A stretch of 29,624 nucleotides of DNA from a virus. The stretch is taken from IMG/VR virus record IMGVR_UViG_3300030106_003149, positions 1 to 29,624 of that record. One strand, written 5' to 3'. Positions 2,272 to 22,300 of this stretch are shown here, piece by piece (position 1 is the stretch's first letter; each line of letters starts with the position of its first letter). The notes beneath the pieces were generated by a model. It ran no database searches and had not been told where the DNA came from. It saw only the letters and a list, made by a program, of their open reading frames with translations. The position numbers were made by a program, and so were the translations under genes.

Positions 2272-2474
2272 TCGCGGGACCAGGCCTGCGCGAGGCCGCA
2301 CTGTTAATCACCCTACAAGAGGTTGAGGAAGCCGTGACCGGATCTCAGCGATACCGAGATGCAACCAATCGGCTAAACATGATGACTCACATTCATAGCA
2401 ATCCCGATGATCACGAGATCCTTGATGCCTACGCAAGCGAGGTCTTCGAGCGGCACAGATGGTGGAAAGAATGA
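2193..2474 (+). CDS. Small hypothetical protein overlapping the exonuclease gene
   Basis: This 93-codon frame begins inside the exonuclease gene and ends at TGA 2472-2474, where it overlaps the next gene as ATGA. That coupling is the best evidence that the C-terminal part is translated. The N-terminal third (to about residue 35) is Arg-rich and may simply be the shadow of the exonuclease. From residue 36 on, it looks like a normal soluble helical protein (LITLQEVEEAVT, EILDAYASEVFERHRWW). ATG 2193 has GGAGGT at 2175-2180, at a long spacing of 12 bases. GTG 2334 has GAGGAA at 2325-2330, close by, and would give a 46-residue product. The start is therefore uncertain, and the function is unknown. 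Confidence 0.5.
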   Translation: MDRLRLLRSGKDWTNRHDRESQSRRLIAGPGLREAALLITLQEVEEAVTGSQRYRDATNRLNMMTHIHSNPDDHEILDAYASEVFERHRWWKE

Positions 2475-2731
2475 TCAGAATTGAATCTGGCATTCCGTTG
2501 CCCATGGGACAAAACGGATCCATCTATCCCTGGAGCGAGATGCAGGTTGGCGATTCTTTTTTTTGCGAGAGCGACGAAGAAATGTCGCCAATGCAGCGCC
2601 AGAATTCAGCGCATTCCAGCGTTGCCCACTACCGCATCGTCAACAAGCTCACCAACAACCAGTTCGGCATATTGACTCGTCGCGTGCGCGAGGACGGGAA
2701 AAAAGGGCTTCGAGTTTGGAGGGTCAGATGA
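2471..2731 (+). CDS. Conserved small phage protein (DUF7303-like)
   Basis: This is an 86-residue protein. I chose ATG 2471 because it overlaps the upstream stop as ATGA, has GGTGGAAAG just before it, and starts directly with the conserved-looking MIRIESGIPLP. An in-frame ATG 2459 would add four residues. IESGIPLP, YPWSEMQVGDSFF and a C-terminal RRVREDGKKGLRVWRVR correspond to a small phage family often found in recombination and replication operons and annotated DUF7303 or as a hypothetical protein. The DNA or protein target is unknown. The stop overlaps the following gene by four bases. It is a compact beta-rich protein by composition, without cysteine pairs or membrane segments. Confidence 0.7.
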   Translation: MIRIESGIPLPMGQNGSIYPWSEMQVGDSFFCESDEEMSPMQRQNSAHSSVAHYRIVNKLTNNQFGILTRRVREDGKKGLRVWRVR

Positions 2732-3237
2732 CGTGGCTTGATGAATCTGTTTCGGCCTCTCTTCTCCCTGTTCCTCGAAAGGGTCAGATCAAGCGCGTAG
2801 ATCTGTATCACGCCTGGCATAACCACGCTCACTCTGAGTTTCAGGATCCGGCCACGCTCAAACAGCATCTCGATCCCCTGCAGCCAGATGCCGTAACAGT
2901 TACAGACGATGAGGACCTCAATCAGCTCGACTGCCTTCGCACCCGCCAGTTCGGCATAGAGAGCGAGATCGCAGATCAGCTATCAGAGCTGCAGGAACTC
3001 AAATCCCAGCAGGACGCGCTGAAGAAAACGATTGCACGGAGATACGAGGGCAGTGCAACCAATGGCAGCACGCTCGTCCAAGTGGTTAAGCGCACGGCGC
3101 CACTCGACTACCGGAAAGCCTTTGAATTCTTGGGCGGCGTCGAAGCCGTACTGGAAAAAGACGCAGCGATGGACGACTTCCGTCGAGCGAACAACACACA
3201 ACAAATCACAATTAAGTCAGCAGTAGTAGGAGACTGA
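2728..3237 (+). CDS. Hypothetical coiled-coil phage protein
   Basis: This is a 169-residue protein. The frame is open further upstream, but ATG 2728 is the likely start: it overlaps the preceding stop as ATGA and follows a strong ribosome binding site, GGAGGG at 2718-2723. The first 60 residues are a soluble region with YHAWHNHAHSEF. Residues 75-105 form a predicted coiled coil (IADQLSELQELKSQQDALKK). Residues 106-169 are an alpha/beta tail (LVQVVKRTAPLDYRKAFEFLGG). The helix-pair-then-strand layout is vaguely like Gam-type or accessory recombination proteins, but I see no decisive motif. Its place between the exonuclease and a putative ssDNA-binding protein makes a role in DNA recombination or replication likely. 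Confidence 0.7.
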   Translation: MTWLDESVSASLLPVPRKGQIKRVDLYHAWHNHAHSEFQDPATLKQHLDPLQPDAVTVTDDEDLNQLDCLRTRQFGIESEIADQLSELQELKSQQDALKKTIARRYEGSATNGSTLVQVVKRTAPLDYRKAFEFLGGVEAVLEKDAAMDDFRRANNTQQITIKSAVVGD

Positions 3238-3240
3238 AAC

Positions 3241-3519
3241 ATGGCAGACGTGGAATTTACCGAAGGCATCTATGTCAACGCGCCGAACGACAACGCGCCG
3301 GATTTTGTGAAGGCGCGGATCAGAATCGATATGGCGCAGGCATATAAGTGGCTGGTCAAAAAAGCCGAGTCAGTCGAGAAGGATGAATCGGGGAAGCAAT
3401 GGCTTAACCTGGATGTTAAAGAAGGCAAAAACGGGCGCTGGTACGCGAGCGTCGATAACTGGAAGCCGAGCGGTAAACGCTCGAGCGATCCGTTCGGTGA
3501 TGAGGACGCGCCTTTTTGA
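3241..3519 (+). CDS. Putative ssDNA-binding protein with SSB-like acidic tip
   Basis: This 92-residue protein is preceded by AGGAG at 3228-3232, which supports ATG 3241. The family-like opening EGIYVNAPNDNAPDFVKARI and the beta-rich middle (QWLNLDVKEGKNGRWYASVDNW) match small phage proteins found beside annealing proteins. The last ten residues, DPFGDEDAPF, look very much like the acidic Pro-Phe tip of bacterial SSB, which recruits partner enzymes. Together these suggest a small OB-like ssDNA-binding protein that displays an SSB-type docking tail. The tip is seen directly; the fold and binding activity are inferred from length, strand pattern and operon position. Confidence 0.6.
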   Translation: MADVEFTEGIYVNAPNDNAPDFVKARIRIDMAQAYKWLVKKAESVEKDESGKQWLNLDVKEGKNGRWYASVDNWKPSGKRSSDPFGDEDAPF

Positions 3520-3890
3520 AGCGCACGCACCTTCGCCTGACCAGGAATGTTGGACAACTGACGTACCTTGGCCGCGCTCTCGACACGAAGCGCAAAGAGG
3601 AGACGTTCGAGATCCGGCTCTGGGCAAGGAAGATCAGCGCAGGTGAGAGCCAGGGGCTGATCCTCAACACCCAGACCAAATCCGGTGTCAGCGAAGAGCT
3701 GCTCGTGCAGTTTGGCGACGAGATAACAGCCACTGCCAATGATCTGTCTATCGGGGTGATGCTCATGGGAATCGAGAGCTGGGTCGTGCCTGAATCCAAG
3801 GAGTATCAGGTAGTGCCGAGTGCCTTGATCAGAATCGAGGCGCCCCAGGATTGCAAGATTTTGCGCGGGAATGCGCGGAGAAAATTCTAA
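3516..3890 (+). CDS. Hypothetical phage protein, 124 residues, TTG start
   Basis: The most likely start is TTG 3516, which overlaps the previous TGA stop as TTGA and has GAGGA at 3502-3506 nine bases upstream. No ATG occurs early in the frame. The protein is soluble and rich in beta-type residues (TYLGRALDTKRKEETFEIRLWARK, ELLVQFGDEITATAND, SIGVMLMGIESWVV), consistent with a small beta-barrel or sandwich. The C-terminus is basic (GNARRKF). No catalytic motif is evident. It ends directly against the ATG of the ribbon-helix-helix gene (TAAATG), so the two are probably translated together. Confidence 0.65.
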   Translation: MKRTHLRLTRNVGQLTYLGRALDTKRKEETFEIRLWARKISAGESQGLILNTQTKSGVSEELLVQFGDEITATANDLSIGVMLMGIESWVVPESKEYQVVPSALIRIEAPQDCKILRGNARRKF

Positions 3891-4073
3891 ATGCCAAGAG
3901 CAAAAAAACGAAAGGCAATGCCACATTACACGTTCGTCTGCACGCCGGAGATGGCGAAAAGAATCAACGCTTTCGGGGAGAAGTTTAAGAAAGATCGACC
4001 GGAAGTTTTCGTGAATACCAGCGTCGTACTTAGGCGCCTGATCGAGCTTGGCCTGCAGGCTGAAGAGACTTAG
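3891..4073 (+). CDS. Ribbon-helix-helix DNA-binding protein (Arc/MetJ-like)
   Basis: This is a 60-residue protein with a basic leader (MPRAKKRKAM), a short strand (HYTFVC) that would form the DNA-contacting ribbon, helix A (TPEMAKRINAFGEKFKKD) and helix B (TSVVLRRLIELGL), the typical layout of an RHH dimer. The ending VVLRRLIELGL is characteristic of this fold. GGAG lies about ten bases before ATG 3891. Because it sits immediately before the integrase gene, it could be an excisionase-like or repressor-like regulator of integration. The palindromic and tandem sites behind the integrase (5185-5578) are natural candidates for its operators. The fold is fairly clear; the role is inferred. Confidence 0.7.
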   Translation: MPRAKKRKAMPHYTFVCTPEMAKRINAFGEKFKKDRPEVFVNTSVVLRRLIELGLQAEET

Positions 4074-4088
4074 CAAATAGGGGTTGAT

Positions 4089-5150
4089 GTGAGACAATCA
4101 AACGGCTACGGGGAAGTTGTGTATCACCCACAAACAGGTGGTCACATGACACAAAATAGCAAAGAGGACCTCACCTTCGCGGAAGTAGCCGACAGGTATC
4201 TGGCGTCACTTACGCGTCATGGTGAAAAAAGAGATGACGTAGTAGTTCGCGTCACCAATCGTCTGAAAAGGCGCTACAGGCAAAATGCCCGCACGAGCTA
4301 CAAGCTCATGGACATTGATTGGCTGGAAGAGCGGTTTAACTTGCCGGGAGAACTGAGGACGAAGGGCGACAAATTTGCCCGTCGATCAAGGCCTTACGGG
4401 AAACCACTCTCCAAGGCGTACAGCGAAGCGTATATAAATAAGTACATGGTCATTATCAACTCAATCTTCAAAGTTGCGGCAGAAATGGGCTACCCGTTTT
4501 CGCTCGTGCCGATGCAGAAGATGCCAGAACGCAAGAGGGAGATTTACTTGCAGCCGGATCAGGTGAGTGCATTAGCTGAATCACTCGATCCGCTGAGAGC
4601 GGCGATGGTCCGATTTGGTTTTCAGACCGGGTTGAGAATATCGGGTGTGCTGACAATGACCTGGGACATGGTCGATTTCGGCGACCGGATGGTCTACTAC
4701 CGAGGCTTTCAGACCAAAAACCGCAAACCGTTCGCTTGCGTACTGAACGACTTCGCGTTGCGAATCCTTGAGGAGCGGCGTGCCTGGACCGATGCAAAGG
4801 AAGCAGAGCTTCGCTCGAAGCCCGATCTCCTGAACCCGGAGGGCATTACAGAGATCCCATACGTTTTTGCGAAAGACGAAAACCGCTGGGAGAAATGTAC
4901 GCCTCTTTCCAGGCAAGCGGTGAAGAACAAGCACTGGAAGATGGCCTGTCAGAGATTGAAGATCGATCCCAAAGCCAGCTTTCACACGCTTCGTCATTCG
5001 TTCGCGAGTCACCATGCAAATGCAGGCACGAATCCCAATGAGCTTAAAACACTCGGCGGGTGGAACAGCCTCAACAGCGTCGAAAGGTACGCGCACTTCA
5101 ATAAACAACGACTCGAACTGGTCGTTCACAGGGTCGCAACGGAGGTATGA
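4089..5150 (+). CDS. int: Tyrosine recombinase (phage integrase)
   Basis: This site-specific recombinase would integrate the phage genome through attP. Numbered from GTG 4089 it has 353 residues. The N-terminal core-binding region (about 25-135) is followed by the catalytic domain, with Arg183 in TGLRISG, Lys210 in the beta-hairpin FQTKNRKPF, His299 and Arg302 in FHTLRHSF, Trp325 in LGGW at the second His/Trp position, and the nucleophile Tyr334 in ERYAHF. All six catalytic positions look intact. The start is ambiguous: GTG 4089 follows AGGGG (4079-4083), while ATG 4146 follows AGGTGG (4136-4141) and would give 334 residues starting MTQNSKED. A long helical insertion (220-260) lies inside the catalytic domain. 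The adjacent 5151-5581 region is its probable target. Confidence 0.92.
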   Translation: MRQSNGYGEVVYHPQTGGHMTQNSKEDLTFAEVADRYLASLTRHGEKRDDVVVRVTNRLKRRYRQNARTSYKLMDIDWLEERFNLPGELRTKGDKFARRSRPYGKPLSKAYSEAYINKYMVIINSIFKVAAEMGYPFSLVPMQKMPERKREIYLQPDQVSALAESLDPLRAAMVRFGFQTGLRISGVLTMTWDMVDFGDRMVYYRGFQTKNRKPFACVLNDFALRILEERRAWTDAKEAELRSKPDLLNPEGITEIPYVFAKDENRWEKCTPLSRQAVKNKHWKMACQRLKIDPKASFHTLRHSFASHHANAGTNPNELKTLGGWNSLNSVERYAHFNKQRLELVVHRVATEV

Positions 5151-5184
5151 AAAAAGGGGACGATAGATATTCCATTCGCCGCAG

Positions 5185-5271
5185 GGTTGTAAGAGTTCCA
5201 TTCCTGATTAGGCTGGAACAATTACTTTTCCTGCCAGGGTTGGAATATTTCCGACCTTGCTGGGAACGGAA
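5185..5271 (+). repeat. Tandem 26-27-base degenerate repeats, block 1
   Basis: Three consecutive copies start at 5185, 5211 and 5238, with a possible degenerate fourth at about 5262. Each begins GGTTGGAA or a near variant (GGTTGTAA, GGCTGGAA, GGTTGGAA) and is followed by a TTCC-type half-site. The third copy holds the near-palindrome GGTTGGAATATTTCCGACC (5238-5256, one mismatched pair). The regular spacing of 26-27 bases, about 2.5 helical turns, suggests an ordered protein array. Confidence 0.65.
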
Positions 5272-5382
5272 CCTAGTCCCCAAAGTGACATTTTAAAAAG
5301 GTTGTGAAATAGGGTTAGCGTTAAGAAACAGCCATAAGCTATTCATTCTGCTAATTAAATAGCGGTTTGAAAATGGAAACCG

Positions 5383-5392
5383 GGTTCGATTC
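5383..5392 (+). other. tRNA T-loop-like sequence, possible attP core
   Basis: GGTTCGATTC matches the conserved T-arm/B-box sequence of bacterial tRNA genes, a frequent crossover target of phage tyrosine integrases. The flanking bases do not form a proper T-stem and no full tRNA or CCA end follows, so this is not a tRNA gene. It could be the 3' portion of a tRNA shared between attP and attB, which would extend rightwards towards about 5410. It may also be chance. Confidence 0.35.
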
Positions 5393-5492
5393 GGAGATTC
5401 CATCCTCGGCAAGGTTGGCGAAGCTGTTTCCTTAAATATCAATAAGTTACGCAACTTCCTCAAGCCCTATTCCATATTCCCGAGCGAAAAAA

Positions 5493-5578
5493 GGTTGGAA
5501 CAGTTCCAGTTCCTAGCAGGGTTGGAGCTTTTCCAAGCGAATTAAGGTTGGAACAGTTCCATTTCCTAGCAGGGTTGG
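5493..5578 (+). repeat. Tandem 26-27-base repeats with TGGAAC-A-GTTCCA dyads, block 2
   Basis: Copies start at 5493, 5520 and 5546, with the beginning of another at 5573 (spacings 27, 26 and 27). The first and third are nearly identical over more than 33 bases, with one difference, and contain the perfect 13-base dyad TGGAACAGTTCCA at 5496-5508 and 5549-5561. The middle copy diverges but has its own dyad, TTGGA (5522-5526) with TCCAA (5532-5536). The last repeat start runs into the ribosome binding region of the gene at 5582, so bound protein would also affect that gene. Confidence 0.75.
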
Positions 5579-5581
5579 TAT

Positions 5582-5803
5582 ATGAGTCAGTCAATAAAGA
5601 AGCTATACGAGGATGTCTCAAGGGCATCCGACTACCTCGATGCGCTTTGCATCATGCTTCAGCTCAACGAAGAAGCAGCACTGCAAGAGGTCGATCTACT
5701 CAAGATTAAGCACGCCGCGAATGAGATCGCGCAGGTTATGAGTCCACTCATCGGGCCAGAATTGCACGAAATGGTGGAGGCCAATGCCCACCCTGATTTT
5801 TGA
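5582..5803 (+). CDS. Small acidic hypothetical protein, 73 residues
   Basis: This 73-residue helical acidic protein (LYEDVSRASDYLDALCIMLQ, LQEVDLLKIKHAANEIAQVM) begins at ATG 5582. The only ribosome-binding-like sequence is AGGG at 5571-5574, which is part of the tandem repeat array, so its expression may be tied to whatever binds those repeats. No motif or membrane segment is seen. Its end overlaps the start of the next small gene by about 20 bases. The composition suggests a helical bundle or regulator; I cannot identify it further. Confidence 0.6.
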   Translation: MSQSIKKLYEDVSRASDYLDALCIMLQLNEEAALQEVDLLKIKHAANEIAQVMSPLIGPELHEMVEANAHPDF

Positions 5804-5915
5804 GGTAGAGGATATGCAGCCTGGCCAGACCGTGACCGTCACGCTGCAAGACGATCAGGATGACGCAAAAGACGATGAGCCTGCGTCAGTGTTCGCGATT
5901 CCACGCAAAGAATAA
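5784..5915 (+). CDS. Very small acidic protein, 43 residues
   Basis: A 43-codon frame runs from ATG 5784 to TAA 5913-5915, with GGAGG at 5776-5780 just ahead. ATG 5814, with GAGG at 5802-5805, is an alternative start that would give 33 residues. The product opens as beta-type MPTLIFEVEDMQPGQTVTVTL and continues with a strongly acidic stretch (DDQDDAKDDE). It overlaps the preceding gene, as translationally coupled phage genes often do. The pattern of a strand followed by an acidic tail is compatible with a small DNA-mimic or adaptor, but that is only a guess. Confidence 0.45.
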   Translation: MPTLIFEVEDMQPGQTVTVTLQDDQDDAKDDEPASVFAIPRKE

Positions 5916-6000
5916 ATGGCCTGTCTGGTATGAGGTGTCCATCCCACGGCCCCTGTTCCTTCCCCGTAGCAACCGCAGGGGTCAGGGCATGTCTGCCAGC

Positions 6001-6029
6001 AGGCCATCCTATTGCAGGCCATCCTATTG
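6001..6029 (+). repeat. 14-base tandem duplication at a gene start
   Basis: AGGCCATCCTATTG occurs at 6001-6014 and again at 6016-6029, a tandem unit of 15 bases. Each copy carries an AGG followed at a suitable spacing by TTG, so the duplication doubles the possible start site of the nuclease-like gene. It keeps the reading frame. Confidence 0.8.
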
Positions 6030-6491
6030 ATTGAACTGAATCTCGCTGAGCAAAAGCTGGCGCAATATCTGGCTCAACAGAGATATAGAGCTGGGCGCAG
6101 AGCTGGCATAGAAGACCGGCAGATTGGACCTCAGTCGTCTTACGAGACCGATCTCCAGGGGATCGCAGCCGAGATTGCGGTAGCCAAGACTCTCAACGTC
6201 TACCCCGACCTCGAGGTTGGTCACACCCCCGACGCAGATCTGATGACTCGCGACGGACGGCAGCTCGACGTTAAGGCGACGAAGTATTCAACCGGCCATC
6301 TTCTTGCAGCACCCTGGAAGGATAAAGGTGGGGCAGTTGACGAATACGTGCTTGTTGTCGGCAAATTCCCGCGCTACCGCATCGCTGGAGTAATGAGCCG
6401 GGACGAGCTGCTTCGGGACGAACGACTGAAGGACCTCGGCCACGGCAGGGGATATGCCGCAACACAGGCAGAGCTTCACAGGTTGAAGTAG
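6012..6491 (+). CDS. Putative PD-(D/E)XK superfamily nuclease
   Basis: This protein of up to 159 residues has a compact restriction-endonuclease-like core. Helix residues QGIAAEIAVAKTL carry Glu54, followed by DADLMTRDGRQLDVKAT with Asp74/Asp76 and the Asp86-Val-Lys88 motif, then beta strands (VDEYVLVVGKF, YRIAGVMSRDELL). This E...D...DxK order is that of small phage nucleases and Holliday-junction-type enzymes; no specific family is assigned. There is no early ATG. TTG 6012 and TTG 6027 both lie eight bases behind an AGG, one in each copy of a 15-base duplication, and the second would give 154 residues. A short upstream frame (ATG 5989) ends at the TGA 6028-6030, so its translation could couple to TTG 6027. 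The 3' end overlaps the convergent gene by 16 bases. Confidence 0.6.
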   Translation: MQAILLIELNLAEQKLAQYLAQQRYRAGRRAGIEDRQIGPQSSYETDLQGIAAEIAVAKTLNVYPDLEVGHTPDADLMTRDGRQLDVKATKYSTGHLLAAPWKDKGGAVDEYVLVVGKFPRYRIAGVMSRDELLRDERLKDLGHGRGYAATQAELHRLK

Positions 6492-6928
6492 ATTGCCATG
6501 GCGAATATCGCAACAGCGGTCACGGCACACACGATGCCCATGATCTGCCCGATTTCTTGCCACATCTCACGGCGCTTTTTTAACTTCGCGTTTAGAGCCT
6601 TCATCTCTTTTTCGTGCGCGAGCCTGTCATCCTCCAGAATCTGCTGGTAGTTGCGCCAGACCTCTGGCATTTGCGCCATGAGGCAAGCATCTTTGAGAGC
6701 GGCCTCCATGCTCTTTTGACGCTTGATAAGAAGGCTCATATTAAAAGCCTCTTTCGGAGAGACGCGCTTTCTTTTCTGCTTCGCCTCAAGCGCTCGAATC
6801 TGTGCGCTGGCGTCAGCGAATCTGCCAAGAATTGCTTCGGCGTTTCCGCGACTTTCTCTTAGCGTGGCGATTCCACTATTAATTCCGTTCAGGATCGCAA
6901 TGCCAGCAGTAATCGACTCGATGATCAT
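6476..6928 (-). CDS. Hypothetical coiled-coil protein with C-terminal membrane segment
   Basis: This 150-residue protein is the last gene of the minus-strand block. Residues 1-23 are an amphipathic, hydrophobic leader (MIIESITAGIAILNGINSGI). Residues 25-122 are charged and helical with coiled-coil character (LEAKQKRKRVSPKEAF, DDRLAHEKEMKALNAKLKKRREM). Residues 128-148 form one transmembrane helix (GQIMGIVCAVTAVAIFAMAIYF). A membrane-anchored rod of this type fits a spanin, a holin accessory or an ejected membrane protein. It starts at ATG 6928, overlapping the previous gene by four bases, and ends against the convergent nuclease-like gene with no obvious terminator. The topology is clear; the function is unproven. 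Confidence 0.7.
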   Translation of the reverse strand: MIIESITAGIAILNGINSGIATLRESRGNAEAILGRFADASAQIRALEAKQKRKRVSPKEAFNMSLLIKRQKSMEAALKDACLMAQMPEVWRNYQQILEDDRLAHEKEMKALNAKLKKRREMWQEIGQIMGIVCAVTAVAIFAMAIYFNL

Positions 6929-7149
6929 GCGTCTACCTGTATGGTGGAGTTGGTGATCAAAGACGCAACATCAAGCTTTCCACGCTCAAGCGTGTAGATC
7001 GTGACTTCTTGAATTGTTTCGACGCGCCGGAGTCCGCGTGTCTGGAGGGTCATGCCCTCGTTCTTGCCGGTCGCAGCGACCTCGAGGGTGTCTACTTTGC
7101 GCTGGGCGAGGGTTTGCCAGGAGATGGCAGGCTCAATTTGCCCTACCAA
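6925..7149 (-). CDS. Small hypothetical protein, 74 residues, TTG start
   Basis: This 74-residue frame starts at TTG 7149 (complement), which is preceded by TTTAGGG on the minus strand at good spacing. It ends with an ATGA overlap into the next gene. The protein is soluble and rich in beta-type residues (VDTLEVAATGKNEGMTLQTRG, VETIQEVTIYTLERG). I do not recognise a family. Its place between two membrane proteins suggests it belongs to the same lysis or ejection module. Confidence 0.6.
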   Translation of the reverse strand: MVGQIEPAISWQTLAQRKVDTLEVAATGKNEGMTLQTRGLRRVETIQEVTIYTLERGKLDVASLITNSTIQVDA

Positions 7150-7155
7150 AATGCC

Positions 7156-7470
7156 CTAAACATGTTTGGGGATAAGCCGATTGATGCGCTCCCTCCACTC
7201 GAGTCCTTGAGCATCGCCTTCTCTAGCCTTGCGCCTCACACGATCCGCGAATAACAGCTCATGCGGACTTTCGAGGAACAGCACCGATGCAGCCGTAGCG
7301 TTAAACAGGACCGAAGCGGCGAATCCAAGTCCCATTAGCACTAGCACCGGAATCCTGAAATACCAGCCGTAATCGGTGCGTTGCGTGTGCAGCTCCACAG
7401 CCTTCGCGACAGCGAACACAAGCATGGTGGCAAAGATCGGGATGGCAACGGCCAGGATTAAAATGATCAT
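7156..7470 (-). CDS. Small two-helix membrane protein, conserved phage type
   Basis: This 104-residue protein has transmembrane helices at about 3-24 (ILILAVAIPIFATMLVFAVAKA) and 40-66, with the conserved-looking stretch DYGWYFRIPVLVLMGLGF between and into the second. A positively charged C-terminal tail follows (ADRVRRKAREGD, EWRERINRLIPKHV). Similar proteins with a GWYFRIP motif and an SVLFLE.P..LLF end are common in podovirus structural and lysis regions, but I know of no proven role. A holin-like or inner-membrane ejection role is possible. ATG 7470 overlaps the stop of the giant gene as ATGA, so translation is coupled. Confidence 0.75.
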   Translation of the reverse strand: MIILILAVAIPIFATMLVFAVAKAVELHTQRTDYGWYFRIPVLVLMGLGFAASVLFNATAASVLFLESPHELLFADRVRRKAREGDAQGLEWRERINRLIPKHV

Positions 7471-10400
7471 TTCGCCGCAGTCCTGTATCTGACGTTGAAC
7501 CGGTCGTAGATTGACTCCATTTCCTGGCGAAGTTTTTTGATTCGGTTGCGATTCGCCTCAGTGTTCGGGCTGTCTTGCAGTGTGCGAATTGCATCTCGCC
7601 GCGCCTTCAGGGCCTTGTCTGCCTGCCGCATTTGCAGCGGCATCTCCGTGTAGTAGCGCTGAGATTGCCTCCTCAAGAGCTTTCTACGTTCTTCAGGTGT
7701 GCCTTTTTTCCAGCCCCTCTCAGCCATCCTCAGATCTCGGCGATTGGCGTAATACGTTGTTTGATCCACGTACTCAGAGGGTTCAAAAATAAACTTGCGA
7801 AGGATCGGGGTGTCGCTGAACCGAGCCTCATCGGCTGTTGGCTCAGTCACTTTTGCCGCAGTGTCGAACGCATCGACCGCGAATCGTCCAGCACCACCGA
7901 ATACCCAATCGAAAATGTGCTGAATACGGTCAGGTGAAAAATCAGCCCAACTGTCCTCATATTGAGTGCCGCCGCCCGCCGCATTGGCGAGCTTGCTGAT
8001 AGCCTTAAAGGCCTCGAAGGTCCCTCGCTTTCCGGTCGAAGATGCGGGTTCATCGACATACGGATTTTCCCGCGTGATCGGAGCGCCGAAGAAGTTAAGG
8101 TTTGCGATCTGCTCACCGCCAAATTCTAGGATGTCAGGGAGCAGACCCATTATCGCTTCCCCTGCAGACTGTATAGCCGGAGCGTTTTCGCTTGTGGTGT
8201 GAAGCTCAACCGGAGCAAAGTGCCGCATGCCTGTGCCGACAAGAGCTGCAGCGCCTTCAGCAGCGGTTCGAGTGCCGGTGATCTGTTCTGCTAACACCCG
8301 GCCCAGCGTGTGGAACCAGCCATAGCCGTAAGGCATGGGGATCCCGATAGCATTTTTTCCGTCCGCCATCACCACGTAATTGTGATTCAGGACGTGGGGG
8401 CGAATGTCCTTGTAGATAGGCTCTCCGTCTTCGTCGTCATCAGACAGCATCAGATTGAGCATTGTCTGGCCGAACCCAAGACCGACCAACCCCATGACGA
8501 CTTTCCTGGCGGCATAGACCTTGCCAGCATTGCCTGTCTTACCTTCAGCTCCCTTACGCATCACTGCGTTGAAGAGGTTTACATTGCCCTGAAGCGCAGC
8601 GTTAAAAAACATGTACCCGATGTTGATCAGGCTTGAATATTCACCCTTCCTATTAAAATTAGTGCTTATGTCTTTAGCCAGGGTAGCTGCATCAAGACGC
8701 GGGACTCCCTGTTTCCTCGCCTCGATGTAGCTGCTCAGCCGAAACGAGTTCTCTGTGGCCTGGTTGTACAGCTCTACACCATCGACCACCCACTTGGCAG
8801 CTCGACGCGCCTTAGCCGTTTTCGATTCCCCAACGTCCTTGAGCATGCTTTCGATGCGACCGCGCTGCTCTTCGAGGTCTCGGAATGTGGCCATCCCCGT
8901 CTGCGCGCCGTCCTCGATGAACTCCTTAGCCCATCGGAACATTTCGCGCTTGGATTCTGGGATGGCCTCCTCTTCTTTGCCCTCTCTTCGAGCCTGTCGA
9001 TTCCGCTCTACGTGCCGTTGATAGGCCATGAATCCTCGGCCAGCATCCCACGCGCCGGTCATAATTTTGCTGACGATCCCGTCTGTGCCTTGCAGGCGCC
9101 CGCCGAATACTTCGGTTTCAGATAGCGCGTACACCAGCGCCGTCTGTGCATCCCTCAGCGGATTGATCAGACCCCAACTGGGGTTCCAGTTGATCAACAT
9201 GTTCCTGCGAAAATTTTGGAATTTCGACAGACCGGTCATCACTTTGCCGAAGACCTCGAGCGAGGAGTTAAGCAGCGCAGGGCTGGCTTCTTGCAGCGAC
9301 CTGTTCAGCTCCTCGTCCTTAACTTCGATCCAGTGGCTCAGTCCGTCGCGCTTAATCTCGATGTACCGGGCCGTATCAGGATCTCGAGGATGTCGCTCCG
9401 ATCTCATCTCCGATTCGGATTTGGTGTTAGCCCCCTCATCGACCGGCATGAAACCTGTGTGCCATACATTCCAGGCACTCTCATCCTGGTTTTGTTCCAT
9501 TAGTGCAAGTAGGCGTTGGGCGACTGAATTTCTTTCGCCCCGAATAATTTTCCCTTCGGCGTCCATGATCGATCTGAGGAACGGGCTGGCAGCTTCTGTC
9601 GTCCTGCCCCTCAGCTTGCGGCTTTCTCTGCCCGAAATGTTGAATCCCTGGCTGGTCGCAGCACTGATCTCGGAGCCATCCTGATCGGCAAAACCTTTTA
9701 GAGGAACGTAGTACTGGTACGTTGATTCCCAGCCTGCGCGGCCACGCTCATCGAGTAGCCCCTGATTGACCATGTTCTCGCGCATTTTCGCGAGCATGTT
9801 CCAAACGATCTTGGCAGTCCGCTCAAGACCTTCGTGCTTGCCCTCTTCTTTGAAGGCCTCAACACGAGCATTGGCCTCGGCAGTAGTCACGCCTGACCCA
9901 GTTTCCTGAAATCTGAGAGGAGCATTCTCCTCGGCCTCGAGGCGAGCTTCCTGATTCTCGATCCTTGTCCCAAGCGCCTTGGTGGCAGTCTCATCCGCTG
10001 CCTCCTCGAGCGACCGATTTAGATCCTCGATTTTCTTCTCAATGGCAGCTATGCGCTGAGCCTTCCGTTCGCGCTCATTCGCGGCGACAACGACATTACG
10101 TTCTGGCGCATGCATTGCCAGTAGAAACGCATCGAGGTCTTCAATGGTGAGGTTCTCACGGTTGAGAGAATCCACGACATCCTGCACCGGACCCTTCGCC
10201 AGCTCATCTGTTTGGTTCTGTATTCGAGAATGAGACAAATTTTCTCGATACCAAAAGCTGATCTCTGCTGGCAGCTTCTCGAGGCCCATCTTTTTGGCAA
10301 GATGCTCTTCAATGACCCGCCAGGATCGATACCGGTCAAAAAATTGCCGGAGTTTCGGCGCACTAATGATCTTTTGCGCCTCGATGTCTTGAGCCAGATG

Positions 10401-13400
10401 CTCTGCTGCGTTGAGGCCAGCATCATCTGGATCGTTAGCCTTTATGAATTGCGGGGCTTCGACTTCGACTTCGGCTTCGGCGAATCCGGTGCTATCGGCG
10501 GACTCAGTCGAAACAGCTTCTTCAACAGCATATTCGTTTTCAGTCGCTTCTCTTGTTGCGTTGGCTCTGATCGCCGCATCCAATTTCTCCCTATTGATTC
10601 CTTCGCCTTCGTACCATGGCACGCCCTCCTTGTAGTCCGTTACCTTAAATCCAGGGGGCGTAATTCCGTCTTTTCTCTTGGCCTTCATTTCGCTTAACAG
10701 CGCGTCGAAGCCATTGCGGTCAAATCGATAGACCTGACCCTCCGAGTCCGGGTACAAAAAATACGGAGTGCCATCGGCGTCACGAGCGTAGGTCGTTCCG
10801 TAAGCAAATCGGTTTTGGCGACCTTCGGGTGCGCCGAGGAAGGCATAAGGCGAAGAAGATCCTCGTATTTCTTCGATCAATCCCTTCATCGTCGGGTGTG
10901 CGACGACTTGACCCGACTGTAGGACCCAGGATTCCCAGTGATAGCGGGCTAGACTTGCGTCTTCCGGTCGTCCTAACTTCGCATAAAGCTCAACGATCCG
11001 CCTCTGCATTGAGGTCTCAAGCGCCTCATATCTGGCCAGCCCATGCAGCGCGTCAAACTCCATCGCGATGTCATCATAGATAAGTTTTCCGTACCGGCCT
11101 GCGTCGTACATATGGTTGAGCTGTATTCGATCAAGGACCAGTACGTCGGAACGGCCGGTCATCATCATAATGAAGCTGAAAACTTTATTGTCGATTCCAA
11201 TCGACCGGGTCAGACCCTGGAATTGCCTGCGCGCCTCAGAGGATGGAACGGACCTATCCGCTATCAGATTGTGAATTCTCTCGAGAACGGAAATGCCCTC
11301 GTCATCCTGTTCGCTTAGCTTTTGCATCATCTTGCCGAAATCATTGGCGTTCGAGACGCCGCTACGTCCGAAGCTCCCTTCGGGGATCGCGTCGCCGACT
11401 GCTGATCGCCACCTGGCTACGTCTTCTGTGCCGAAATCCCCATTAAGCGCGCCATCTATCGCCTCATCGACAACGCTTCGGTTTCCACCGCTAGTTAACA
11501 GATCAACGAATGCAGCTTCTTGCGAAGACGCGGTGAGCATTCTCGATAGGCTTCCCCATAGAAGGAGCTTTGCAGTAGCTTCAGGACCGGCCTCCCCGCT
11601 GATGTAGAGATCGCCAAGCTCTGCCGCCATGGCCATCCCCTCGTCAGCCGCAGCACGCTGCTCTTCCGTCAGGGCAGAATGCGTCGTCGCCCATTCGTCA
11701 ATGTCCGCAGTCTGTTCAATTAGTTTGTACGGCGGACGTAGAGTTTGATTCGATCCTGAGAGATCTCGCTCGAACCGCAACCAGTCCCGTTGAGACGCCA
11801 GTGGATCGGGGTGCCTGTCACGTAATTCCTGCAGCGCCTCGAGCTGAGCAGTCGCGTTGCCTGGGTGAATAATTCTAGTGAGAGCCGGTCTGCCACGAAC
11901 ATTCCCCGAAGATCGCCGGAACAGGTACTCCCGCTCAGCAGTGATGTAAAGGATAGGATCGTTGAGCTGCCTCTCGGTCAGAGCCGGGTTAGCGGCCCCA
12001 TAGGAATTGATGTATCGGCCAATCTCGGCCTTGAGCGCGGGAGTCGGATCCCAGAGGTCGATGTCTTCCTCAAAAAAAGCGTCGATTAAATCGCCGACGT
12101 AGTCGAATCCTAGAAACCCTTCGCGATCCAAGGCAGTCCAAAGACGACGCAGGGGAGGAGGTAAATCACCGCGATTTGCGTCGTCATAGGTCTCGTTAGC
12201 GATGCCCGCCTTCTTCAGGTCTGCAATCATTTGCTCCCGAAGATGAGGCGCGTTAGGGAATTGCCGGTATGCGCTTACCCGCGCAGAGTCAGGTCTGTCA
12301 GCCTTAATAAATTGTGGATCACTCGGTTTGCTCCCGAAAACACCGTACTCAGACTTCCTCATCGAGACGATTGAGGCTATGGCCTCGACTTTGTTGTATC
12401 CGCCAGCCAGTTCCTCATTGGTTTCCGCGTCATACCACCATTGATATTGCCGATCATAGAAAATCGACCGGACATCACCGTCCGCAAAATGCAGTTCCCA
12501 TGCCCCGTCGTATGAAAAATTTTCGCCTTTTTTGACCTTTGGATTTTCATCATCCGGCATTGAGACTCGAGGGCTGAACACCTCTTCTGCAGCCGGTTCT
12601 GCCGCGACTTCCGCCACAGGTTCTGCTACACCAATAGCCGAATAGCGCGAGGCGCCATCATCGAAGGAGCGGGAAACCCTGCCCGATGCAATCAAGGAAT
12701 CAAGCGCAGCCTGCGCCTGATCCTCATTCTCGACCTCACCGACACGCTCGACCACATTCTCAAGACTTGTCGCGCCTTCTGCTACCGCGTCAAAGACGGC
12801 GGCGTTTATCGCGTCAAATTGTCCAGGATCGACCCCGTCTTCATCTTCCCTCGGTCGCGCCAACTCGGTATCGGCTGGTTCGACTCGAGGGCTGACTTCG
12901 CCATCGACTCCAGCTCCTCGTCCGTCTTGAACTTCAGCGCCTCCGGGGAGGGGCGGTGGCCGAAGGTCTCCACGTACTTCGCGAGGTTGGGAGGAAGGTC
13001 CACCCGTTTCAGCGTCCGTTTGGCCATCGAAGATTTCCCTCGTAGTTGCAGTCGGATTCTCTCTAATTTCGGTCAAAAGAGCATGTGCCAGCGGGGCATT
13101 TTCTTTTACGAGATCAGGATCGCTGATCATCAGCGTGCCAAGCTGTGCAAAAACCTCTCTCTTCGCTACGTCCACACTAGCCTGACCAGTTCCGCCTGCA
13201 GCCCTCTCGGCTTCCACCTCGGCAAGCAAACTATTGAGCGGATAAGCGAACACTTTGCCTAGAGTTGTTCCGGCTTCCCACTGATCGAACACCTCGGACA
13301 TGATGTCACCCATCTCGACATCAATCGAATCCTCGTCAATCCGCAATGACAGGCCCGGAAGCTGATTCGTGTACCCGTTTGCGTTGTCTGCCGCATGCAT

Positions 13401-15281
13401 GATCTCGTGAGTTACGGCCCATCGAAGACCCGCCTCATCGACAGCGTCGGCAAAGTGCTGAGGCTGAATCGCAATCGTCCCACTCTGCGGGATTAACGCA
13501 GCAACTGCCTCCGCTGGAGCTGACTCACTATCGAGGACATAAGTGCCGTTAACCATCGATAGCCACTGTTCTGGCAAACCCTGGTCAACAGCATCGAGGA
13601 GGCTGGAAAGATAGTTGGTGACAACCGGCTGAGTCACCGATTCCTCTGGGATGCCGGGAATCAGCGGAGCCAGCTCAATCGCGCTACCATCAACCCCTGG
13701 CACGACAGCAGCAGTATCGGCAGGAGTCGCGGCATCCATCGCTGCGAATCCCAGCGGATGTCCAATCACCCTCTGCTCTTTGTCTTTCTGGTTAGCTGCA
13801 GTATTGCCTTGAGCGTCAACATTGATCGCGGGCTGCCATGGCATCCTGCGCTTATAGCCCTTCTCAACCAGCTCAGCTTGATTGACTGGAACGATAGACT
13901 GGAGCTGCAGAGACGCTTTTTCGCGCTCCATTCCTGTTAGTCCGCTGACGGCGTTTTGAATCTCCGACTCAGTGGCAACAGCCATATCGCCAGCCATCAA
14001 CGGTTCGACTTGCGGATCCCGGTTCGACTGGACCCTCATTTGCATTCCCGCGCTAAGACTCGACATCTCAAACATGCGTTCGGGTGCCGAAACAGGCTCT
14101 GGCTCTATTGCCGCTTCTGCTTGAGGGGTCTCTTCTGTCGGATCGACAACGACCTCTTCCGGCTTGTTGTGATTGTCGTTTGCCTCTACGCCAACCTTCT
14201 GGGCTTTCGCCTGATCCTCGAGCTGCTGTTCTGGCAGCTTCCTGGCTTGCTCTTCTATTTGGTCGAGGGCTTGCTTGTCTCCCCGATTCTGGATAAGCCC
14301 GCCAGGGCCACCCATCATTACGCCACCCACCACGCCGCTGATCGCTGAATGCAAATATGCAAGCTGCGCTTCGTTGCTAAGGAGACTGTCCGCAAAGATT
14401 TGTTGCTCGTCCTCCGGCAAAGCGCTATCGGCCCAAATCAAGGCGCTGCGCTGGATAAATTCCTGCATCGCCTCAACGAGGCCTTCTGTTCCGGCAGAAT
14501 CACGGGCCTCTCTTAAAACAGCCTTAAAAGCATTAGGGCGCTTAGAAATATCGTCCCCGATAAATTCTCTAAGCTCATCGACTCGAGATTTATCGCTGCC
14601 CATCCTCTTTAGCAGGCGAATAGGCGCTGCGAATGTATCTAACGCGCCACTTAGCAGACCGGCTGCAGCCGCAACGGCGGGATCCTCAGTGCCGAGTTCT
14701 TCGAAAATTCGGGTAAAGCTCTCACCTGTTGCAAGAGCAGTTCCTCCAGCAAACGTTCCTGCCGCCGCTCCCTTCTGAAAAGGCGTTTTCCCGACTGCCA
14801 GTTCCGCAAACTTTTTGGCGCCTTGTCCCAGTCGCTCAGACAGTAATCGTTTCGAGGCAGTGGACTTTATGTACGCCTCAGCCTGATCTTCGACTGCCTC
14901 CTTGATTAGCTTCTTTCCGACTAGCCCGCCGACACCGCCCGTGCCGACCATCGTAATGAGACTAGGAAGCACGTTACCGGCGGTGTAGGTGACGAAATTC
15001 CAAAAGTCGTCTGTGCTATCAAGCGCATCAACCATTGCCGTGTCAGGCGCGTATTGCGCTGCCTCAGCCATCTGGCGCTGATAGAAGTCCATTCCATCTC
15101 GCACCATTTCGTCGCTGTTAACGACGCTCCCGGCCCATGCGTAAAGACCACCTGCGAGAGCTTGAGTCTGATCTACTCCTGCACCGAAGCCTTTGCTAAA
15201 TTCCGACATGTCGTCTCGAGCTTCCTGACGGAGACGAGCGGGATTAGTGTCATAGGGATCAGCAAAACTGACTAATGGCAT
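7467..15281 (-). CDS. Giant polyvalent internal virion protein with metallopeptidase motif and LPD38-like domain
   Basis: This is a 2604-residue protein, probably ejected with the DNA or packed inside the head. Residues 1-340 hold Gly/Ala-rich helical segments that look membrane-active (NVLPSLITMVGTGGVGGLVG; SAISGVVGGVMMGGPGG). A zinc metallopeptidase-like site follows: H625-E626-I-M-H629, with Glu709 in REVFAQLG as candidate third ligand. Residues 750-830 are a low-complexity acidic/Pro linker that contains the nested frame at 12806-13027. Later parts include a helical region with VFSFIMMMTGRSDVLVLDR, similar to DUF7178-type segments, and a charged coiled coil (about 1720-1790). A long stretch from about 2023 (FRRNMLINWNPSWGLINPLRD) to 2270 resembles LPD38 of phage polyvalent proteins. 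The C-terminus is basic and helical. ATG 15281 lies 13 bases after the previous gene. Domain names are by resemblance; integrity of the frame is certain. Confidence 0.85.
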   Translation of the reverse strand: MPLVSFADPYDTNPARLRQEARDDMSEFSKGFGAGVDQTQALAGGLYAWAGSVVNSDEMVRDGMDFYQRQMAEAAQYAPDTAMVDALDSTDDFWNFVTYTAGNVLPSLITMVGTGGVGGLVGKKLIKEAVEDQAEAYIKSTASKRLLSERLGQGAKKFAELAVGKTPFQKGAAAGTFAGGTALATGESFTRIFEELGTEDPAVAAAAGLLSGALDTFAAPIRLLKRMGSDKSRVDELREFIGDDISKRPNAFKAVLREARDSAGTEGLVEAMQEFIQRSALIWADSALPEDEQQIFADSLLSNEAQLAYLHSAISGVVGGVMMGGPGGLIQNRGDKQALDQIEEQARKLPEQQLEDQAKAQKVGVEANDNHNKPEEVVVDPTEETPQAEAAIEPEPVSAPERMFEMSSLSAGMQMRVQSNRDPQVEPLMAGDMAVATESEIQNAVSGLTGMEREKASLQLQSIVPVNQAELVEKGYKRRMPWQPAINVDAQGNTAANQKDKEQRVIGHPLGFAAMDAATPADTAAVVPGVDGSAIELAPLIPGIPEESVTQPVVTNYLSSLLDAVDQGLPEQWLSMVNGTYVLDSESAPAEAVAALIPQSGTIAIQPQHFADAVDEAGLRWAVTHEIMHAADNANGYTNQLPGLSLRIDEDSIDVEMGDIMSEVFDQWEAGTTLGKVFAYPLNSLLAEVEAERAAGGTGQASVDVAKREVFAQLGTLMISDPDLVKENAPLAHALLTEIRENPTATTREIFDGQTDAETGGPSSQPREVRGDLRPPPLPGGAEVQDGRGAGVDGEVSPRVEPADTELARPREDEDGVDPGQFDAINAAVFDAVAEGATSLENVVERVGEVENEDQAQAALDSLIASGRVSRSFDDGASRYSAIGVAEPVAEVAAEPAAEEVFSPRVSMPDDENPKVKKGENFSYDGAWELHFADGDVRSIFYDRQYQWWYDAETNEELAGGYNKVEAIASIVSMRKSEYGVFGSKPSDPQFIKADRPDSARVSAYRQFPNAPHLREQMIADLKKAGIANETYDDANRGDLPPPLRRLWTALDREGFLGFDYVGDLIDAFFEEDIDLWDPTPALKAEIGRYINSYGAANPALTERQLNDPILYITAEREYLFRRSSGNVRGRPALTRIIHPGNATAQLEALQELRDRHPDPLASQRDWLRFERDLSGSNQTLRPPYKLIEQTADIDEWATTHSALTEEQRAAADEGMAMAAELGDLYISGEAGPEATAKLLLWGSLSRMLTASSQEAAFVDLLTSGGNRSVVDEAIDGALNGDFGTEDVARWRSAVGDAIPEGSFGRSGVSNANDFGKMMQKLSEQDDEGISVLERIHNLIADRSVPSSEARRQFQGLTRSIGIDNKVFSFIMMMTGRSDVLVLDRIQLNHMYDAGRYGKLIYDDIAMEFDALHGLARYEALETSMQRRIVELYAKLGRPEDASLARYHWESWVLQSGQVVAHPTMKGLIEEIRGSSSPYAFLGAPEGRQNRFAYGTTYARDADGTPYFLYPDSEGQVYRFDRNGFDALLSEMKAKRKDGITPPGFKVTDYKEGVPWYEGEGINREKLDAAIRANATREATENEYAVEEAVSTESADSTGFAEAEVEVEAPQFIKANDPDDAGLNAAEHLAQDIEAQKIISAPKLRQFFDRYRSWRVIEEHLAKKMGLEKLPAEISFWYRENLSHSRIQNQTDELAKGPVQDVVDSLNRENLTIEDLDAFLLAMHAPERNVVVAANERERKAQRIAAIEKKIEDLNRSLEEAADETATKALGTRIENQEARLEAEENAPLRFQETGSGVTTAEANARVEAFKEEGKHEGLERTAKIVWNMLAKMRENMVNQGLLDERGRAGWESTYQYYVPLKGFADQDGSEISAATSQGFNISGRESRKLRGRTTEAASPFLRSIMDAEGKIIRGERNSVAQRLLALMEQNQDESAWNVWHTGFMPVDEGANTKSESEMRSERHPRDPDTARYIEIKRDGLSHWIEVKDEELNRSLQEASPALLNSSLEVFGKVMTGLSKFQNFRRNMLINWNPSWGLINPLRDAQTALVYALSETEVFGGRLQGTDGIVSKIMTGAWDAGRGFMAYQRHVERNRQARREGKEEEAIPESKREMFRWAKEFIEDGAQTGMATFRDLEEQRGRIESMLKDVGESKTAKARRAAKWVVDGVELYNQATENSFRLSSYIEARKQGVPRLDAATLAKDISTNFNRKGEYSSLINIGYMFFNAALQGNVNLFNAVMRKGAEGKTGNAGKVYAARKVVMGLVGLGFGQTMLNLMLSDDDEDGEPIYKDIRPHVLNHNYVVMADGKNAIGIPMPYGYGWFHTLGRVLAEQITGTRTAAEGAAALVGTGMRHFAPVELHTTSENAPAIQSAGEAIMGLLPDILEFGGEQIANLNFFGAPITRENPYVDEPASSTGKRGTFEAFKAISKLANAAGGGTQYEDSWADFSPDRIQHIFDWVFGGAGRFAVDAFDTAAKVTEPTADEARFSDTPILRKFIFEPSEYVDQTTYYANRRDLRMAERGWKKGTPEERRKLLRRQSQRYYTEMPLQMRQADKALKARRDAIRTLQDSPNTEANRNRIKKLRQEMESIYDRFNVRYRTAAK
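12806..13027 (-). CDS. Nested (overprinted) 73-residue gene candidate inside the giant gene
   Basis: On the same strand as the giant gene, but in another frame, ATG 13027 opens 73 codons ending at TAA 12806-12808. The product begins MAKRTLKRVDLPPNL and continues with VETFGHRPSPEALKF, ESMAKSALESNQPIPSW and GSILDNL. It has the composition of a natural helical protein, unlike the Arg/Ser/Trp-rich shadows elsewhere. By hand count, about 63 of 73 codons end in G or C, whereas the giant frame in the same bases has mostly A/T third positions. GAGGG lies about nine bases before the ATG. The host frame here encodes only a low-complexity linker (residues 752-826). It could be a true overprinted gene or a captured gene fragment read in a new frame. 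The family is unknown. Confidence 0.5.
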   Translation of the reverse strand: MAKRTLKRVDLPPNLAKYVETFGHRPSPEALKFKTDEELESMAKSALESNQPIPSWRDRGKMKTGSILDNLTR

Positions 15282-18968: not shown

Positions 18969-19331
18969 CTAAGAGGGCGGGTCAGGAAATCTCACCTCCG
19001 ATACAGTTAGGTGATGGCCCTGCGTGTCGGTCAAGTCCCGCAACTCCTTGCGGTATCTCGCCCACTCCGCTCGCTTATCCGCTGTAAGCGGAGAATCTGG
19101 CGACTGTGTCCAGTCAGACTGATCGAGCAACCCTTTACGACGTTCTCGAATCCAGTCTCTGACATCGATTTTGGGTTCCGGTTTTGGGACGGGCTTCCCG
19201 TCGATGATTAAAAAGCGGTCTGGATCAACCGCCCCATCAAAAGCAGCCTCACCAGCCCGCAAGTTTGCTGCGACATCGAATGTCCCGACAGCGCGGATTG
19301 ACCCGCTCGACTTGTCGTAAATCGTTTTCAC
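18969..19331 (-). CDS. Tail fibre/tail assembly chaperone-like protein
   Basis: This is a 120-residue protein. Residues 64-100 (RRKGLLDQSDWTQSPDSPL and then RAEWARYRKELRDL) closely match the phage tail assembly chaperone family PF16778, in which a DWTQ-PDSPL motif is followed by a Trp-x-x-Tyr-Arg helix. The N-terminal part holds a short beta region ending in a Pro/Lys-rich linker (DGKPVPKPEPKI). Such proteins assist folding or assembly of the fibre encoded next to them, here the 1228-residue J-like protein directly upstream, whose stop overlaps this start by four bases. Confidence in the motif is high; the precise partner is inferred from adjacency. Confidence 0.8.
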   Translation of the reverse strand: MKTIYDKSSGSIRAVGTFDVAANLRAGEAAFDGAVDPDRFLIIDGKPVPKPEPKIDVRDWIRERRKGLLDQSDWTQSPDSPLTADKRAEWARYRKELRDLTDTQGHHLTVSEVRFPDPPS

Positions 19332-22300
19332 GAGGTTTTGTGAATCCTGAAAACTTGAATGAATGCGCCCTGCCAGCCCCTCTTGCCGCTCGCTAAGTTA
19401 ATTCCCGAAATGAACCCGTAAGCCGTGAAGCGGTACGCCTTGTCCTTCTCCAACTCATGGCTCGCAACGTCAAAAAACCCAGTGAGAGGAAGGCTGTTGT
19501 TTTGCTTAATTGTTCCTGATGTCGCAACAATCTGATTCCAAGTGCCGTCAGTCTGTAGTTTCTCAACAACAAAGACGGTGAACGCCTGATTCGTATTACC
19601 AGCAGACGCAGACCCGACAACATGCCCCCCAAAGTTAAAAAAGTAATCCCCTCCCTCTTGAATTTGATCTGCCGTTACCTGAACTTGAGCAATATTCGTC
19701 AGAGTTCCTCCACCTCCAAAATCAGGACCGCCAACAGAGGATTCTTCATACGGAATGCTTCCAACGAAATGAGCTTGAGTTAAGTTCATGTGCAAGTTTG
19801 CAGCGGCTACATACCCACCCTTAACGAAGGCCATCGTCCCCACCGCGTCATTGCTGAGGTTTTCGACCTTTATTCCATTCGACCCGTCGCTGGTTATGAG
19901 TTGCAGTTGTCCGTTTGAATCCTCGCTCAAAAACTGATTACTGATCTTTAGCTTGGAGGCCTGAATCGTGTTTGCGTCAATTCGGTTCGAAACATCAAGC
20001 GTGCCAGTTGTAATGACATCTGCGTCAACACTGTGAATCTTCGCGCTGGTAATCGAGGCATCTGAGATCATAGCCTTTGCGATGTAGACGCCAGGCGGCA
20101 CAGTGACTGTCGTGCCGTCGCTAAGCGTTACATTTTGATTCGCCGTCTGAACCACGAATGGCAGCGCCATTTTGCTTTGATCCGTAGTCCAGGCTGCAGG
20201 ATCCGCTTCCGCATCCCAGTAATAAATTAAGCCATTCGATAGTAAACGGAACGGCTGGCCTTGATAGTCGCCTGTGGCTGGCAGAGACCCGCCGGAAGCG
20301 GTGGTCGATGGAACAAACGCAAACTGATCTGCCGTAACGATGAACGACGACAAAGGGGTAGACCCAGAATGGGTAGACGCTAGACCAATCCCAGCAACAT
20401 GGCCTGCGTTATCGATCTTGAGCGTGTACTGACCTTCCAGGCCCTCGGTGTCGCTTGCGATGGCACTGAACTTTTGCTCGAGCGTGACGCCATTCTGATC
20501 ATCCAGTCGAGCGGACACCTGAAACGTGTTTGTCGCAGCCGACAAAATTATTCCGCCGACAGAGTCATGCTTTCCTATGTTCTTCCAGGTCGAGTTCGAA
20601 CCAGTTTCAGGAGGTCCAAAGTTTGGGGCATTTGACCCCGCATATGACGTATGCGCGAGCTGACTGAGATAGATGTTGCCGTAACGCTTGACCGGATCAT
20701 CAACCGCGTAGGCCGTCTGCGATGCCCAGTCAGGTACATCCGTCAGGATGGTTGAGAAGGTATTTGCCTGGTCAACAATCCTCGAGAGAGCTTCCGGGTC
20801 ATACAGGTAAGCCTCGAAGTTGCTGATGTGGACCTGAGCTGAGTGCGTTTGCGTATCGTGGTAGTCGAATAGGAGGGTTAGTGATCCGTACTGCACATTA
20901 GCTAAGGTCGCAGCAGGAAACGTCACCACACCCGTGTAATCCACCCACTGTCCTGCGGTGTAGCTTTCAGCCAAATTGCTGAGGCCACTGTGATCCCAGT
21001 CAACATAAACGTAATCGCCCACCAGACTGTAGGACGAGTTCATGCGAGCCAAAGCCACTCGAATCTTCCCGTAGTATCCCGTTCCAATATTGGCGCGCAG
21101 GTGGACTCGCAGCTTACGGCCTTCTTCCCAAGCGAACCGGTTGAGGCTCGAATTTCCGCTGGTGCCGTCTGGTGTACGTGGCCTCAGAATCCGGCGAGTA
21201 AATGCCAGAGAGGTCCCATCACCGGTAAAAATTACCGCAGGGCAATCTTCATTCGCTCGCGTCTTTCCAGCAGTGTCACTGTGAGTGATGTCTGCATCGT
21301 GAGTGGCATAAACAGACGCACCGGCACTGGTTGATATGCCTTTGACGAAGCCGGGATCGGTAATGACCTGACCAATTCGCGAGTAGACTGTGCTAACAGT
21401 GTCATCGACTCGACGTGTTTGGGCCGCGACATTATTCGCATTATTGGTCACCGACTGCTGCATACTCGAAATCGAGTCGGCGTTACCGGCCACCCCATTA
21501 TTTCTGACGAAGTCCCATACGGATGCAGAAGCAGCCGGACTATTTGACGAATTCGCTGTATGGTTTTCTTCTGCCGAATACACCTTGTTGTCGGTGTATA
21601 CGACTTTGTCGCCAACAGAATAGGTCTTCCCGTCTGTCCAGGTTCCGGTGACCTGATCAGAGAATACGGCAGAGTTCAGGGCGGTCATTTGCAGACCGTG
21701 GGACGTGACCGTGCCGTCAGTTGCGGTGGTACTGGTTGTCAGCGCATCAACCGCAGTACCAGTTGAATCAACCTTATCGACAACGTACTTCCACTTCGCA
21801 TTATCGCTTGCTGATCCGCTTGGACCGTTAGTCCCATCGGAAGTGTGGGCGCTTAGCGCCATATACAGCAGCGAGCTGTGCTTTACGAGATCATTCGTTT
21901 GGTAGCTCTGTCCGGTTGCCCATGACTCGGTCACTCCTCCAAGATACAGAGACTGACGAAGATCAGTCATTTGACTTGATTGGATTGTGATGCTCCCAGA
22001 GTTTGCGTTTACCGTATTCGTCAGACTCGTAATTGCACCGGCATTTGCAGTTAACCCGGTAGAGGAATTAGTGACCGCGGCTTCCAGCTCAGCAATTTTG
22101 CTGGCTGCGGCAGAAGTTGAGGAGGAATCGATGTTGTTTATCGCGGTGATCGATGACGTATTGCCGGACACCGCATCAGCCAAACTGGTGTACTCGCCGA
22201 CGTATTTCCAGTACGCGGTATCAGAGGTAGTGCCAGACGGAGCATTGCCTGTGGTTGACTGCAATGCGCGATACAGATTGCCACTGTGAGTGACCATCGT

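Follow-up and report, generated by a model that had tools for sequence, protein, structure and literature searches.

The best-known phage gene that is fully embedded in the +1 frame of another gene is Rz1, which lies within Rz (PMC6139136). The two products of lambda Rz/Rz1 are partners, and embedded genes of this type often escape gene callers (PMC6139136). Beyond the spanins, overlapping genes of dsDNA phages have seldom been shown to be deeply conserved. Polyvalent proteins are the second described system that is relevant here. Some of them contain a zincin-like metallopeptidase (MPTase), which is thought to process the giant protein or to act in the host (PMC5512222). The phage-type MPTase is defined by an HExxH motif, an Asp three residues downstream, and a Glu in the following conserved helix (PMC5512222). 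The text of that survey contains neither "overlapping" nor "alternative frame", and we found no description of a nested gene within polyvalent proteins in the literature searched.

The window, by which we mean the whole stretch of DNA analysed (29,624 nucleotides, a 29.6-kb viral record), combines features of both systems. Like Rz1, the ORF at 12806-13027 on the minus strand is a small gene enclosed, in the +1 frame, by a larger one of a tailed dsDNA phage, and standard gene callers would be expected to overlook it. It comprises 73 codons and a stop, runs from ATG to TAA, and lies wholly within a 2604-aa ORF at 7467-15281 (-). The preliminary description had reported a 73-codon ATG-TAA frame inside the giant gene and in another frame, and its position proved exact. 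The encoded protein, P0002, includes the peptide YVETFGHRPSPEALK. Our comparison of sequences indicates that the overlapping gene at 12806-13027 is ancient, conserved and fully nested, neither a chance frame nor a recent insertion. It differs from Rz1 in its product, which lacks cysteine and therefore a lipobox, and for which a soluble helical structure is predicted; the lack of cysteine rules out an o-spanin (Rz1-like) identity. The host gene also differs, being a polyvalent protein of 2,400-2,700 aa rather than a lysis gene.

The giant host gene resembles the polyvalent proteins with a zincin-like MPTase and LPD38 (PMC5512222), as it has both HExxH with the downstream Asp and a C-terminal LPD38 domain. 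The latter maps to 7803-8414 (-) (PF18857, E 4.7e-30; E 2e-26 in another search). The polyvalent criterion of further LPD/effector domains joined in a single very long polypeptide is fulfilled by LPD38 and, in the relative L081, by DUF7178. The DUF7178 domain of L081 (giant gene 3982-12144, residues 1123-1290) is similar to free-standing genes, of which some carry a glycosylase annotation, located close to the end of Mycobacterium phage genomes. The C-terminal third of the window giant is homologous to giants of Vibrio and Stx phages. The homologous region spans ~950 aa at 28% identity in Vibrio phage 1.205.O and Stx phage P27 (phrog_14770/616), but these giants have neither the peptidase-domain type of the window nor the nested gene.

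Upstream of the nested gene, a metallopeptidase-like domain of the giant occupies 13065-13547 (-), assigned by a profile and by HExxH with an Asp at +3. The codons of its HEIMH motif, CAC GAG ATC ATG CAT, can be read directly in the sequence at 13395-13409 (-). HExxH and the Asp three residues downstream are present in 31 of the 31 carriers of the nested gene that were compared, and a conserved Glu stands further on, in a (K/R)xExFxQ segment. By these residues the domain matches the phage-type zincin MPTase of polyvalent proteins, with catalysis inferred only. The domain stops just before the nested gene begins, its end coinciding with the nested start, and the nested gene fills the linker behind it. 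In the giant frame this linker (12806-13028, -) is rich in Asp, Gly, Pro, Arg and Glu, is under relaxed amino-acid constraint, and is kept free of stops.

Searches with P0002 as a single sequence gave no match in phages, plasmids, viral contigs or genome contigs. Pfam, PHROGs and NCBIfam contained no match to the nested protein at a meaningful score, and pattern scans from two-sequence alignments returned L081 only, or nothing. Relatives were reached by collecting distant relatives of the giant protein with its conserved C-terminal part and then searching them in six frames. The first homologue was found in L081, within its own giant gene and likewise in the +1 frame. Its Smith-Waterman score against P0002 was 93, compared with 22.7 ± 4.3 for shuffles and 46 for the runner-up of 18,981 ORFs. 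A second collection around L081, combined with an iterated profile search, gave a set of 38 members, one of them the window, at E values of 1e-18 to 1e-32; all 38 are wholly covered by a giant ORF and all are in the +1 frame. In a separate scan of viral contigs with only the nested profile, 23 of 23 loci were nested and four contigs were new. In total, 41 contigs besides the window, from uncultured phages, carry the nested gene.

The homologues diverge to ~25% identity, and the giant proteins of the carriers share only about 25-30%. The nested protein is common to the window and its marine relatives; the sequence of the giant linker is not. Whole records hold one nested copy per phage record and none outside the giant. 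Sequence searches of viral contigs, phages and plasmids yielded no stand-alone homologue, no isolate phage of the phage collection has the nested gene, and it is absent from the whole records of the Vibrio and Stx phages. Matches to Pseudomonas phage Rembedalsseter (E 6) and to Serratia and Bacteroides phages were dismissed as chance. The nested protein is not among the domains of the polyvalent-protein survey (PMC5512222), as far as this can be tested. It is a new family with no known relatives, found solely as a nested gene; embedded +1 phage genes as such are already known. Just past the nested stop, the giant sequence varies among carriers (TTGQVVGAPEG, TSLLDFIKQ, KIVGAPPGVDN and NYIxIGEL; segments L107 6730-6860, L115 8320-8450, L117 4459-4600 and L104 6535-6650), as if domains had been swapped at that boundary, an impression taken from the sequences.

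The proof of the nested gene is comparative and comes from these homologues, the codon-position substitution pattern and the selection ratios. We aligned 12 marine giants by codon and compared the rate of differences at positions 1, 2 and 3 of the giant frame. The rates follow the usual pattern upstream (0.459, 0.368 and 0.585) and downstream (0.376, 0.298 and 0.544) of the nested segment; within it they are 0.436, 0.338 and 0.258. Of 840 alignment windows, 28 have a lower rate at position 3 than at position 1, and every one of these overlaps the nested gene. The wobble position of the giant is its most conserved position solely within this segment. This inversion suggests a practical search route for more nested genes, and the linkers of polyvalent proteins can evidently harbour second genes.

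For the selection ratios, changes were classed by their effect in both frames, using 23 representatives, 85 pairs and a bootstrap over columns; dNN/dSN is a measure that we simplified from that of OLGenie (PMC7531306). The dNN/dSN of the nested frame is 0.30 (95% CI 0.19-0.43) and the dNN/dNS of the giant frame is 1.22 (0.95-1.57). Therefore, the nested protein is under purifying selection, and the giant amino acids there are mostly not. The giant-frame ratio is 0.87 in the first 30 columns versus 1.41 in the rest. A short conserved giant-frame motif at the start of the segment in the marine group fits these tighter first columns.

Both frames are kept open across the relatives. When the nested proteins are recoded with ordinary codons, 5-10 giant-frame stops arise per relative, and recoding the giant in the same way produces 1-5 nested-frame stops (mean open probability 0.04). 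None was seen in either frame in 31 relatives. In the window alone, the nested frame stays open with P 0.39 when the giant is recoded, which is not significant; for the window, it is homology that carries the argument. By sequence, the locus qualifies as a same-strand nested overlapping gene in having a complete ORF in another frame, both frames open, and purifying selection on the alternative frame, with translation inferred only.

These data strongly support one reading given in the preliminary description, in which the nested frame truly codes for protein and is overprinted in a linker of the giant. They speak against its other reading, a small gene recently inserted there, because the same junction and frame recur in 42 contigs with very divergent giants; the absence of a stand-alone copy from the collections searched also opposes it. 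Of the outcomes that had been named as refuting a nested gene, the decisive one, relatives that keep the linker while the nested frame is not conserved, clearly did not occur. Another of them, a lack of stand-alone homologues, was indeed obtained.

The original argument for coding was the G/C content of third positions, put at about 86 percent. Our value of 0.85 is close, and the figure is real, but it is largely a mechanical result of the frame relation. GC at codon positions 1, 2 and 3 is 0.55, 0.43 and 0.85 in the nested frame, and 0.85, 0.55 and 0.44 in the giant frame over the same bases. As the third nested position coincides with the first giant position, the two values of 0.85 are one observation, and GC3 alone is silent on which frame codes. 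A GC of 0.85 at giant position 1 is extreme for the giant gene, where stretches outside the nested gene do not exceed 0.76. In addition, nested codon usage is atypical in AT-rich relatives. GC3 was set aside as evidence of coding.

The start of the nested gene carries signals of its own. Its ATG is invariant across members. Upstream Shine-Dalgarno matches of at least 4 nt accompany 65% of nested starts versus 21% of the other out-of-frame ATGs in the same giants. In the window, a putative Shine-Dalgarno sequence, GAGGG, lies at 13037-13041 (-), 9 nt upstream of the nested ATG, which is a long spacing. We infer independent initiation at an internal Shine-Dalgarno sequence from these features; the invariant ATG and the Shine-Dalgarno enrichment are the only evidence of translation and are indirect. 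That the nested gene is real and expressed seems to us very probable, with expression inferred in the absence of expression data. A mostly helical protein of 73 aa would then be translated from its own ATG on the mRNA of the giant gene, in the +1 frame, and ribosomes in the giant frame would read the same bases on through as a flexible linker.

AlphaFold models the nested protein as small and all-helical, with pLDDT 70 for the window and 80 for the relative L116. Searches of PDB and viral folds with the nested models gave no significant match. The best viral fold match of the L116 model is BFVD entry A0A8S5MVT4, a 58-aa protein of Siphoviridae sp. ctsBB38 (probability 0.99, E 0.12, TM 0.55/0.65, 25% identity). 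Judged from the models, this protein could possibly be a stand-alone relative of the nested protein. A match of residues 46-61 to PF21631 (A9CJY8-like_N, E 0.11) scored 12.4 bits against a curated cut-off of 27 and was treated as chance; no other member of the nested family matches PF21631.

What the nested protein does can only be inferred. The nested gene and the upstream HExxH domain occur together in 38 of 38 cases, and both are absent from the other giants examined. Because the nested gene occurs exactly where the peptidase domain does, our leading idea is that the small protein may be a dedicated partner of the zincin-type metallopeptidase domain upstream. It might serve as an inhibitor, chaperone or processing cofactor, produced in excess over the giant, and would hold or direct self-processing around packaging or injection. 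A role as partner or regulator of an upstream self-processing peptidase domain is unproven, and we put it forward tentatively, judging it somewhat more apt to be wrong than right. The full form of the proposal, in which a self-processing metallopeptidase is controlled by a small helical protein whose +1-frame gene occupies the linker directly behind it, we regard as rather unlikely. If it were true, protease and regulator would be inseparable by recombination and both would come from one mRNA. The nested protein is at any rate a concrete candidate for the control of polyvalent metallopeptidase domains, the regulation of which is unknown.

Alternatively, the nested gene may be real and its product unrelated to the peptidase. 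A small protein of the virion, of assembly or against the host, for instance, could have arisen by chance in a linker that tolerated it and be inherited along with that linker. We would give this explanation an even chance, and such a role is at least as likely as that of a partner. The carriers are all homologous giants, so the linkage is explicable by descent, and the co-occurrence may reflect nothing more. A profile of the 220 aa that precede the nested gene picks out the 38 carriers exactly, and none of the remaining giants examined; it was built from carriers and is biased toward finding them. The unconstrained giant linker is an easy site for overprinting, and no structural or family match points toward the peptidase. 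An unrelated role leaves unaccounted for a co-occurrence without exception, and the absence of the nested gene from the other giants examined, some of which are closer neighbours of the window in the C-terminal tree.

The origin of the arrangement is a separate matter. Rather than arising de novo by overprinting, the small gene may once have stood alone between two others and been swallowed when read-through in a different frame joined its neighbours into one; this is possible but doubtful. A constrained, globular-looking nested product within a relaxed, low-complexity linker would suit such a fusion, as would the variation past the nested stop and the weak structural match (E 0.12) to a phage protein of 58 aa that is encoded on its own. 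The lack of a stand-alone sequence homologue in viral contigs, phages and plasmids tells against it. In addition, the giant frame of the marine set, with a codon-usage z of -2.1, is far closer to the norm than the nested frame (z -7.3). This difference favours overprinting onto an older giant frame, as far as codon statistics allow, but constraint between the frames weakens the test. In the C-terminal tree the marine carriers form one clade; the window lies elsewhere among non-carriers, at an unstarred position on a long branch. Horizontal transfer of the module to the window was considered and not adopted, as this position is not firmly supported and the AU test does not exclude a tree in which all carriers, the window among them, form one clade (p-AU 0.33).

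Programmed +1 frameshifting from the giant, yielding a truncated peptidase with the nested sequence as its C-terminus, would be consistent with the shared strand, the +1 frame and the location directly behind the peptidase domain. However, the nested frame of L117, L118, L119 and L081 opens at the ATG, immediately after a stop, and in the other members except the window it opens within 1-4 codons of the ATG. This leaves almost no room for frameshift entry, the window excepted. The invariant ATG and the enriched Shine-Dalgarno matches also speak for a separate start, and we consider frameshifting very improbable. That the frame is open by chance, its conservation a mere shadow of giant-frame conservation and base composition, is extremely improbable: nested GC3 does equal giant GC1 and the window frame could be open by chance (P about 0.39), but the giant frame over the segment is unconserved (about 1.2) and the nested frame conserved (0.30), the codon-position pattern inverts solely there, and the window shares with its marine relatives the nested protein and not the giant linker sequence.

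The nested gene thus described lies in the genome of a temperate phage with its own recombination module, as judged from the genes at 1094-5150 (+) in the left part of the window, which encode a Sak-type annealing protein, a YqaJ recombinase and a tyrosine integrase. The minus strand carries the virion and tail-fibre genes, with the giant gene at the end. Among its products, the tail protein encoded at 19328-23014 (-) has a CBM_5_12 carbohydrate-binding module and a phage tail-tip domain.
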